A DNA stretch of 64,000 nucleotides from Candidatus Nitrosocosmicus arcticus (GTDB taxonomy: Archaea; Thermoproteota; Nitrososphaeria; Nitrososphaerales; Nitrososphaeraceae), in assembly GCF_007826885.1 (NCBI RefSeq), contig NZ_ML675587.1:1-64000 (forward strand), given 5' to 3'. The translations under genes and the position numbers were made by a program. Under the pieces are notes generated by a model. The model was not told where the DNA came from. It made no database searches and saw nothing but the letters and a program-made list of their open reading frames with translations. Positions 58,415 to 61,480 of this stretch are shown piece by piece; within the stretch, counting starts at the first letter, position 1; each line of letters begins with the position of its first letter.

Positions 58415-59494
58415 TTATTTTTGCATGTCAGCAAAATACGGAATAACTTTATTTCCGAAGGTCTCTATGTTTTGATAAAGCCCCTCACCCCAAAAACGAA
58501 TTATGAAATGGTTTGTACCCGCTTTTATAAATCGTTCCAACATTTCTATTACGTCATCTGGGCTCCCAACACCTATAGCAGTTCTTGCTACATCATCAGG
58601 TATGTGCAAAGATGCTTTTTTCATTTGCTCCATCAATTCAGGTTTGTTCATGGCATATTCTGTAAAGTATCTCCTAAAATCAAACTCTGAGTCCTGCTTT
58701 ATGTTGTGAACTTTTAGTAATTCAGGTTTGTAGAGGCTGACTTTAACAGCGTTTTTCATCTTTTCCCATGCTGCTTCTCCGTCTGCAGCAAAATAAACGT
58801 CAACATCATTTGCAAACTCAAAGTTGGATATGTCCCTACCTAATCTCTTGGCGTGGTCCTTAATGACATTTGCATGATGTTCAAATAAGGCTGGAGTATA
58901 GCCAATAGGTATCCAGCCGTCGCCAAAAGTTGCACACAGCTCTAAAGTTTTTGGTGCTCCGGCAGCGATATAGACCGGTGGTCGCGGTTTTCTGACAGGT
59001 TTTGCTTGTAAACAAGCTTCAACAAGGCTATAATATTTACCCTGGTAATTCACATGATTGCCTGGATGTGATTCAAAAAGCTTTTCAATTACTTCCAACT
59101 GCTCCTTAAATTTTGACACAGGTTTACTAAACTCGATACCAAAATCAACCACATTCTGTGCCTCCCCAGCACCGATTCCCAAGATGCCTCTACCTTTAGT
59201 TATTCTGTCAAGAGTCACCGTCGACAAAGCGATGGTTGAAGGGTGCCTCCTAATGGCATCTGTTACGCATGTCCCTAACTCCACGTTGTTAGTCACCGCC
59301 CCTATTGCTGCTAACATTAACCAGGCATCATTTACTACAGCGTTTTTCCATTGAGGCACATTGGTATGATCCATTGCCCAGACAGAGTCAAAATTAGTTC
59401 TATCGGCTATTTGTGCTGCAGTTATTACCTGCATTTCATCCAGCCCTAATCTAGCGACGTTTAGGCCAAATGTCAACCCGAATTTAATTTTCAC
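58415..59494 (-). CDS. F420-dependent luciferase-like oxidoreductase
   Basis: 359-residue LLM flavin-dependent barrel protein. N-terminal KFGLTFGLNVARLGLDEM, then FDSVWAMDHTNVP, RGILGIGAGEAQNV (the F420/phosphate segment), PVYIAAGAPKTLELCATFGD and GTNHFIIRFWGEGLY at the end. Matches the mer/F420-dependent glucose-6-phosphate dehydrogenase branch better than FMN luciferases. Substrate unknown. Stops 13 bases from the convergent MBL gene. Confidence 0.88.
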   Translation of the reverse strand: MKIKFGLTFGLNVARLGLDEMQVITAAQIADRTNFDSVWAMDHTNVPQWKNAVVNDAWLMLAAIGAVTNNVELGTCVTDAIRRHPSTIALSTVTLDRITKGRGILGIGAGEAQNVVDFGIEFSKPVSKFKEQLEVIEKLFESHPGNHVNYQGKYYSLVEACLQAKPVRKPRPPVYIAAGAPKTLELCATFGDGWIPIGYTPALFEHHANVIKDHAKRLGRDISNFEFANDVDVYFAADGEAAWEKMKNAVKVSLYKPELLKVHNIKQDSEFDFRRYFTEYAMNKPELMEQMKKASLHIPDDVARTAIGVGSPDDVIEMLERFIKAGTNHFIIRFWGEGLYQNIETFGNKVIPYFADMQK

Positions 59495-59704: not shown

Positions 59705-61480
59705 ATGAATAAGAGTGACAAAACAATACTTGTTACAGGGAGTGGAACAGGGATTGGTCAGGCTGTGGCAAGAAAATATGCTAAATCAGGTTACAATATC
59801 ATAATTTTAGGTAGGAGGAAAGAACCACTAATCGAAGCATCAAAAATTTTAAAACAAATAATCACGGACGAAAAATTTGAATCATCCGTAACTTATTATC
59901 CAGGGGTAGATGTTTCAGATTTTGAAGCAATTAATGCGATGTTTGATAAAATTGGTACCGACTTAGGTCAAATTGATATTATTGTAAATAATGCCGGAGT
60001 TTCTGGTCCAGTTAAGATTTTTACTAATTCAAGTTATCAAGAGTTTAAAGATTGTGTTTCAATCCACCTGACTGGTACTTTTTGGACAAGCATTAAAGCT
60101 TTAGAAGTACTCAGCAATACAGGCAAGATAATTACAATCTCCACTTTTTTCACTGAGGAAAATAAATATGAGCAGAGGCCATACAGGTTTAGAACACCTT
60201 ACACTGCCGCTCAAGGTGCAAAGAACAGACTATCTGAGTGTCTTTCTTGGGAACTAGTTGATGAGGGTATCAAAGTTGTAGCAACAAATCCGGGTCCGGT
60301 TCATTCAGATAGAATATATAAAACCGTTTACCCTAAAGCAGCAGCTGAATTTTTAAGAGTCGGAGGTTTTCCGGGTTTGAGTCACAAGCATATCGAAGAG
60401 ATTTCAGCTGCCTTATTACCATATTTAGGTGATGAACCCGAAATAATCGACACTGAATCGAAGAAAATTGCGACTTCTTTAGCTAAAAAATACAAAGATT
60501 TGGATCCTGTAAAGACTCAGCATTTGGCAAAGGAACTTTTGGCTAAGATTCAAGAAATTGCTGAAAAGGTACAGAATAATACGAAGAAAATGATAGTTGA
60601 TAATGAATTCTTATCTCAGGAAGATGTAGCTGAGATGGTACATAATTTAGGAAGCGATGAAATGAGCAAGTTATTAAATGGAAAAGTGATTCCAAATGAC
60701 AGGGTTTTCTACCCAGTAAAACCAATAGTTGAAAGGACCTTAAACATTGAGATGGATAAGACCCTAGAAGATAAAACAATTTTAATTACCACGACCTCTA
60801 CAGAAGAGAAATTGTTGAACTATATCAAGAAAATTGCAGCCAAGATTAATGGCTTAAACGTGAAGCAACTAATTGTCCTTACACATACCGATGAACATTC
60901 ACTAGAAGTGAGCAAAATGTTTGAAGGATTTCACCATCACGCTATCGATTTAGGTAATGAGGTTACAGTTAAGAAAATTTTCAATACAATCAATTCACGA
61001 TATGGCAGAGCAGATTCAGTCATACATTTTACCGGTAGTTACGACTATGATAAAAAACTAACTTCGCTTGACCGTAAAGGATGGGACAACTTGGTGGATA
61101 ACTTCGTTAATATCCCGCACCTAGTCACAACCGAATCAGTATTATCAATGACTACACACCAGGCGTTAGATGACCCTTCACTATTTAAAGGAGCTAAGGG
61201 AAACATCGTAATCGTCGGTCCTAATTCGCCGGTGGGGAAGAAAGTAGGTGGTGAGGTCCGTGCCAGGTCAGAAGTTTTTAGGGGAGCGTTAAGACCATAT
61301 GTCACTACTGCCAATCAAGAACTCCACGATGTATTAAATTCCGACATAAATCTAACTCTCGTTTTACCGGGGAACATAAATGGCGATTTACCAGACTATG
61401 ACAAAATGGAGAATTCATTGATTGGTTTATGCTCGCAAGAATCTCAAAAAAATAATTTAATTTATTATATAGACGAATAA
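59705..61480 (+). CDS. tandem short-chain dehydrogenase (SDR) protein, malonyl-CoA reductase-N-like
   Basis: 591 residues, two Rossmann-type SDR domains. Domain 1 (1-250): TGSGTGIG at 11-18, NNAG at 95-98, STFF at 146-149 and Y166, but the YxxxK Lys is Gln170; Lys173 is nearby. It resembles the first half of Chloroflexus malonyl-CoA reductase (PGPxxSDRI after the active site). Domain 2 (about 345-590) lacks a clear glycine loop (TILITTTSTEEK). A helical linker joins them. Possible role in the 3-HP/4-HB cycle at the malonate-semialdehyde step, though the missing Lys argues for caution. ATG start. Confidence 0.8.
   Translation: MNKSDKTILVTGSGTGIGQAVARKYAKSGYNIIILGRRKEPLIEASKILKQIITDEKFESSVTYYPGVDVSDFEAINAMFDKIGTDLGQIDIIVNNAGVSGPVKIFTNSSYQEFKDCVSIHLTGTFWTSIKALEVLSNTGKIITISTFFTEENKYEQRPYRFRTPYTAAQGAKNRLSECLSWELVDEGIKVVATNPGPVHSDRIYKTVYPKAAAEFLRVGGFPGLSHKHIEEISAALLPYLGDEPEIIDTESKKIATSLAKKYKDLDPVKTQHLAKELLAKIQEIAEKVQNNTKKMIVDNEFLSQEDVAEMVHNLGSDEMSKLLNGKVIPNDRVFYPVKPIVERTLNIEMDKTLEDKTILITTTSTEEKLLNYIKKIAAKINGLNVKQLIVLTHTDEHSLEVSKMFEGFHHHAIDLGNEVTVKKIFNTINSRYGRADSVIHFTGSYDYDKKLTSLDRKGWDNLVDNFVNIPHLVTTESVLSMTTHQALDDPSLFKGAKGNIVIVGPNSPVGKKVGGEVRARSEVFRGALRPYVTTANQELHDVLNSDINLTLVLPGNINGDLPDYDKMENSLIGLCSQESQKNNLIYYIDE

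Follow-up and report, generated by a model that had tools for sequence, protein, structure and literature searches.

A tandem SDR protein conserved in ammonia-oxidizing archaea as a candidate stand-alone malonyl-CoA reductase

Ocean and soil nitrification are dominated by organisms that use the thaumarchaeal 3-hydroxypropionate/4-hydroxybutyrate (HP/HB) cycle and are among Earth's most abundant microbes; the title of a 2014 paper by Konneke et al. reportedly calls this cycle the most energy-efficient among aerobic pathways of CO2 fixation. The malonyl-CoA/succinyl-CoA reductase of Sulfolobales is a paralogue of aspartate-semialdehyde dehydrogenase. Full-length malonyl-CoA reductase (MCR), as in Chloroflexus and Roseiflexus, is bifunctional, a chain of ∼1,200 aa with the order SDR1-SDR2-SDR3-ED-SDR4. 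Its C-half (PDB 8i6z, 8a30, 8hi5, 6k8s) is a tandem of a catalytic and a degenerate SDR domain that yields malonate semialdehyde from malonyl-CoA, and its N-half (8hi6, 8aew, 6k8v), the malonate semialdehyde reductase, is likewise a tandem SDR unit. The catalytic residues of the RfxMCR C-half are Ser731-Tyr749-Lys753, plus Arg785 and Arg799, and a Tyr743-Arg746 pair has been proposed to protonate CoAS-; in the N-half the set is Thr165-Tyr178-Lys182 plus Tyr172 and Arg175 (PMC10470521). In FabI the catalytic Lys is found at Tyr+7 (Tyr156/Lys163), and the SDR variants YxxMxxxK and YxxxN have been recorded (PMC10864336).

In ammonia-oxidizing archaea (AOA) the genes for the malonyl-CoA, acryloyl-CoA, succinyl-CoA and succinic semialdehyde reductases are listed as unidentified, with the activities present in extracts, including malonyl-CoA reductase activity in those of N. 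maritimus (PMC6038301). A study of 2020 also failed to find the malonyl-CoA reductase gene (PMC6964070). The first-pass annotation had connected the gene described here with this unassigned step, and that link is upheld. In a marker set from 2026, K15017 stands for malonyl-CoA reductase in variant I only; variant II has no marker for this enzyme, and K18602, malonic semialdehyde reductase, is among its markers (PMC12894919). Nitrosocaldus SDRs ∼30% identical to Chloroflexus MCR were described as possible malonic semialdehyde reductases (Abby et al., 2018; PMC5797428). As one passage of that paper has it, the N. maritimus member of the Nmar_1110-type iron alcohol dehydrogenases (Fe-ADH) is a characterised malonic semialdehyde reductase, and Nitrosocaldus is without this type (PMC5797428). 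Our literature search, conducted outside subscription journals and preprints, found no paper assigning the AOA malonyl-CoA reductase gene.

The window, i.e. the whole 64,000-nucleotide stretch of the Candidatus Nitrosocosmicus arcticus contig that was analysed, contains a gene for a 591-aa protein (Table 1); archaeal amoA is present in the source genome, and this and the closest named relatives make the organism an AOA. The ORF translation contains the motifs TGSGTGIG, NNAG, STFF, RTPYTAAQ (Y166..Q170) and PGPVHSDRI, and those named in the first-pass annotation, together with the YxxxQ at Q170, were found as described. Pfam adh_short spans residues 6-202 (E 1.4e-38). The AlphaFold2 model (pLDDT 79.7, pTM 0.78, 20 sequences in the alignment) contains two alpha/beta units of Rossmann type (residues 1-345 and 346-591), confirming the two SDR folds in series reported for this ORF. 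Model confidence is low at 154-161 and 196-207, and therefore side-chain geometry is not readable from it. The second unit, SDR2, probably has a structural role.

Table 1. Positions of the candidate gene and its features in the window
Feature	Position	Strand	Basis
Tandem-SDR gene, candidate stand-alone malonyl-CoA reductase	59705..61480	+	ATG ORF, 591 aa; family searches; structure model
SDR1, catalytic Rossmann domain, residues 1-221	59705..60367	+	Pfam, model, family alignment
TGSGTGIG nucleotide-binding loop, residues 11-18, invariant	59735..59758	+	Family alignment
NNAG motif, residues 95-98, invariant	59987..59998	+	Family alignment
His121 at SDR tetrad Asn position	60065..60067	+	Aligned columns, 57/57
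Thr147 at catalytic Ser/Thr position	60143..60145	+	Aligned columns; RfxMCR Thr165/Ser731, PMC10470521
Y160-x-x-R163-x-x-Y166 = RfxMCR Tyr743-Arg746-Tyr749 (C-half), Tyr172-Arg175-Tyr178 (N-half)	60182..60202	+	Aligned columns
Gln170 at SDR catalytic Lys position, invariant 57/57	60212..60214	+	Aligned columns
Lys173 at Tyr+7, invariant 57/57; spacing as FabI Tyr156/Lys163	60221..60223	+	Alignment; PMC10864336
PGPVHSDRIYK, residues 196-206; R203 = RfxMCR Arg785 (C), Arg215 (N)	60290..60322	+	Aligned columns
All-helical insert, residues ∼222-300, at place of MCR-C extra domain	60368..60604	+	Model
SDR2, degenerate Rossmann domain, residues 346-591	60740..61477	+	Model, family alignment

The first PDB matches by phmmer were full-length MCRs (2e-33 and 1e-28), E-values that are flattering because two matching halves are summed. 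Per domain, MCR (63 and 54 bits by HMMER) scored no better than ordinary SDRs, and the family profile gave 83 bits for glucose dehydrogenase vs. 74 for MCR. In a whole-chain Foldseek search of the PDB, ranks 1-25 were all MCR (E 1.4e-21 to 1e-16), followed by SDRs at 3e-11; the RMSD of 11-18 Å over 620-700 columns means that the architecture and the folds of the domains agree without a tight superposition. The protein does not have the full MCR layout, being 591 aa long with two SDR domains. In a tree built from all columns, the AOA protein, MCR-N and MCR-C stood apart from 34 ordinary SDRs (support 98/91). After removal of the active-site loop columns 147-170 and 198-225 the AOA/MCR grouping was lost and the MCR halves separated too, which makes active-site convergence possible. 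Grouping with ordinary SDRs, named earlier as the outcome that would count against an MCR-type protein, was thus not seen with the full domain or the whole-chain fold, and the MCR grouping itself depended on the active-site columns. Common descent of the AOA protein with MCR is likely, resting on those columns and on architecture. Within AOA, the f2 sequences (L066/L067, then L068) branched first in the all-column tree, as in vertical inheritance from an AOA ancestor. An alphaproteobacterial single-domain SDR (L091, G946:C1:269922-270530; 258-aa frame) was 41% identical to the MCR-C catalytic domain. A plasmid search for MCR returned ordinary SDRs only, among the matches listed.

The resemblance to MCR claimed in the first-pass annotation held for architecture, active-site set and whole-chain fold, but not for the N-half in particular, to which domain 1 had been assigned. 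Domain 1 scored 54 bits with the N-half and 63 with the C-half by HMMER, and 64 and 74 bits by profile; profile comparison of the MCR halves gave no separation (score N 210 vs. C 204). C-half chains led the Foldseek list by E-value (∼1e-21, TMq ∼0.65) with N-half chains nearly equal, and the target-normalised TM favoured N-half chains (0.70 vs. 0.60). The AOA protein has two insertions at places where the C-half also has one: six residues before the catalytic Tyr, giving FxxEExxYxxxPY (shared with the C-half only), and a helical insert after beta-6, between beta-6 and alpha-G, where MCR-C has its extra domain. The AOA helical insert is shorter than the MCR-C extra domain, and a profile search detected no sequence similarity of residues ∼222-300 to that domain or to any sequence. 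Common to both are YxxRxxY, PGP-x4-R and an NADPH-type Arg. The C-half, however, comprises ∼650 aa within a longer chain, whereas the AOA protein is stand-alone, with Lys changed to Gln, Asn to His and a Lys at Tyr+7, and with an SDR2 that is more SDR-like than MCR SDR4. Profile comparison of SDR2 with MCR SDR2/SDR4 found no specific match (SDR2-SDR4 match only 10%). The N-half, which also has YxxRxxY, differs in its own alpha-4 insert, missing in the AOA protein, and in being without the helical insert; it keeps Asn and Lys, both lost in the AOA protein, where the Thr-Tyr spacing is six residues longer. Features found with the N-half alone are Thr at the catalytic Ser/Thr position (T147) and SDRI, within PGP-x-x-S(D/E)RI. 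The all-column tree joined the AOA protein to MCR-C with moderate support (94/69). An N-half origin is thus not supported. The six-residue insert, the helical insert and the tree point to the C-half reaction as a better fit than that of the N-half.

We compared the active-site columns of the AOA proteins with those of eight MCR catalytic domains and ordinary SDRs. Y160, R163, Y166, F149, P198 and R203 are common to the AOA protein and both MCR halves. YxxRxxY was present in 57/57 AOA sequences and 8/8 MCR catalytic domains vs. 0/32 ordinary SDRs with a YxxxK motif; F149, P198 and R203 are likewise common to AOA and MCR domains, a set absent from ordinary SDRs. The classical signatures TGxxxGxG and NNAG are present, but the Asn-Ser/Thr-Tyr-Lys tetrad is replaced by His121-Thr147-Tyr166-Gln170. 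The tetrad Asn column holds His in all 57 AOA sequences and Asn in 8/8 MCR domains and 32/34 ordinary SDRs; the catalytic Lys column, where Lys753 is essential in the RfxMCR C-half, holds Gln in every AOA protein and Lys in 8/8 MCR domains and 33/34 ordinary SDRs. Lys173 is present in 57/57 AOA sequences, and this column is never Lys elsewhere in the comparison set. FabI, a divergent SDR (enoyl-ACP reductase), has the same spacing of seven residues from the catalytic Tyr to its Lys, and Lys173 may thus be a reasonable substitute for the lost Lys; unlike the AOA protein, FabI is a single domain with a different reaction, and the AOA residue at +3 is A/S rather than the Met of YxxMxxxK. R218 is invariant near the position of Arg799 in the RfxMCR extra domain, although the alignment there is unsure; Arg1164 of RfxMCR lies in SDR4, the domain that SDR2 matched at only 10% by profile.

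Conservation was assessed with 57 distinct homologues from four families (f1, f2, f3, f9). There were 101 invariant positions, among them T147, Y160, R163, Y166, Q170, K173, H121, R203, R218 and the block PGPVHSDRIYKTVYPKAA. A sequencing error at Gln170, considered in the first-pass annotation, can be dismissed because Gln is found in all 57 distinct homologues. Mean pairwise identity was 70% for SDR1, 45% for SDR2 and 43.5% for the helical insert. A catalytically dead or regulatory protein would be in keeping with YxxxQ and with loss of the tetrad Asn, but Y166, T147, NNAG and both the glycine and PGP loops do not vary, and SDR1 is far more conserved than SDR2, contrary to what decay of the active site would give; we consider this reading highly improbable. 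The identities and invariant motifs make decay through Lys loss unlikely and fit a protein whose SDR1 is active and whose SDR2 is structural, and the AOA catalytic centre looks rewired rather than dead.

Homologues across the class were single full-length copies with ∼46-93% identity to the 591-aa protein; the closest named relatives were mostly Nitrosocosmicus MAGs. Two MAGs titled Nitrosopumilus sp. carry copies 93% (L009, JACDCB010000186.1) and 65% (L013, JACDHC010000013.1) identical, and are probably mislabelled Nitrosocosmicus; gene order around the L013 homologue is that of Nitrosocosmicus. The gene was found in 43/43 genomes of the four AOA families and in 0/18 other Nitrososphaerales, with best matches below 1e-100 in the former vs. 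1e-19 or weaker in the latter; amoA was present in 39/43 and 0/18, respectively. Matches were obtained in 213 of 300 genomes class-wide and 61 of 349 phylum-wide; among the matches listed, all lie in f1, f2, f3 and f9 in the former search and in f1, f2 and f9 in the latter. Some MAGs of f1 and f9 gave no match in the class search (e.g., G280, G281, G151). The gene is therefore single-copy in practically every AOA and absent from the other archaea checked, and its presence in all ammonia-oxidizing groups sampled shows that the ORF is not a chance one. The AOA families may share one ancestor, and the gene/AOA correlation may thus be one gain event; near-universal retention, including in the 0.8-Mb genome G169, adds weight beyond this.

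Strong matches to the Nmar_1110-type Fe-ADH came from most of f1 and from f9, but from neither f2 nor f3. Two amoA-bearing f3 genomes (G038, G054) are without a strong copy, like f2. This distribution bears on a second reading, in which the protein is a malonate semialdehyde reductase or converts malonyl-CoA to 3-hydroxypropionate at one site. Families f2 and f3 keep the candidate gene without a strong Fe-ADH, Nitrosocaldus is reported to lack the enzyme (PMC5797428), and Thr147, SDRI and the N-half TMt of 0.70 recall MCR-N; however, f1 and f9 hold both genes, the N-half insert is absent and the C-half insert is present. We regard this reading as rather improbable. The candidate gene occurs in all four families and a strong Fe-ADH does not, which fits the candidate carrying out the first, universal reduction and not the second, although in f2/f3 the enzyme may be bifunctional. 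The f2 genomes carry two tandem PF11794 genes, as reported for Nitrosocaldus (PMC5797428); PF11794 (4-hydroxybutyryl-CoA dehydratase family) also occurs in non-AOA and is a less informative marker.

The chances seem to us about even that the 591-aa protein is a stand-alone half-MCR, which would convert malonyl-CoA and NADPH to malonate semialdehyde and CoA, the second reaction of the AOA HP/HB cycle. It is the best candidate so far for the AOA malonyl-CoA reductase gene, and we infer substrate, direction and mechanism. NADPH would be bound by SDR1 (GSGTGIG, R37-R38) and the malonyl carboxylate held by R163, Y160 and R203; after hydride attack on the thioester carbonyl, the Y160-R163 pair would give a proton to CoAS-, the role suggested for its counterpart in RfxMCR SDR3, in a CoA pocket that SDR2 and the helical insert may close. 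The Asn/Lys proton relay would be rewired to His121/Gln170, with Lys173 (Tyr+7, FabI-like) perhaps replacing Lys. In AOA that have an iron-dependent malonic semialdehyde reductase of the Nmar_1110 type, this enzyme would take over the malonate semialdehyde. A succinyl-CoA or dual malonyl-/succinyl-CoA reductase would be expected to have the same distribution, both substrates are dicarboxylyl-CoAs and both steps are listed as missing in AOA (PMC6038301), but the only characterised relatives use malonyl-CoA/malonate semialdehyde and the carboxylate-binding residues are kept, and we find this assignment rather improbable. More tentatively, and a little short of an even chance, the half-MCR may represent a third malonyl-CoA reductase type: a stand-alone half of bacterial-MCR architecture, perhaps branching near the N/C duplication, with the relay rebuilt to His121/Gln170/Lys173. 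The Sulfolobales enzyme has a fold unrelated to that of the AOA protein, with the same proposed reaction and pathway, and a Pfam scan of the 591-aa protein gave no match to PF01118/PF02774 (semialdehyde dehydrogenase fold). In the sample, AOA and non-AOA genomes both carried ∼2 semialdehyde dehydrogenase (ASADH)-type genes each, and therefore there is no spare Sulfolobales-type copy. If correct, a universal single-copy candidate would close a gap in pathway markers and in genome-scale models, and its rewired SDR tetrad would be of interest for 3-hydroxypropionate production.

In the loci read, no HP/HB genes were seen adjacent to the candidate gene. A 150-aa protein is encoded directly downstream on the same strand in 13/13 f9 genomes (L071:4567-5010 (-), L073:4562-5104 (-), 11 others); it has no Pfam match, and its relatives are only weakly MaoC-like structures (1q6w, E 1.5e-4, profile). 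In f1 it occurs patchily or is broken, and it was not found in G000. This neighbour hints at a CoA-thioester context in f9. A TauE/SafE exporter lies near the candidate gene in 15 loci of f2, f3 and f9 (L066:4119-5087, L071:3576-4373, 13 others), many of which also contain a homoserine dehydrogenase. Such neighbours in f9/f2, the lack of HP/HB synteny and a tree grouping that hangs on active-site columns would suit another AOA-specific SDR function (e.g., 3-hydroxyacyl-CoA or sulfonate/aldehyde reductase) in a protein that came to its MCR-like architecture by convergence; we judge this unlikely, as MCR is the best whole-chain fold by ten orders of magnitude and ordinary SDRs lack the YxxRxxY and R203 set. 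Synteny of the candidate gene is kept within the genus only, where it sits between an F420/LLM-type oxidoreductase and dph6-srp54. In the window the former, an F420/LLM-class, methylenetetrahydromethanopterin reductase-like protein, is encoded at 58415-59494 (-); it is 90-93% identical across the genus vs. 52-71% for several neighbours, and is thus unusually constrained.
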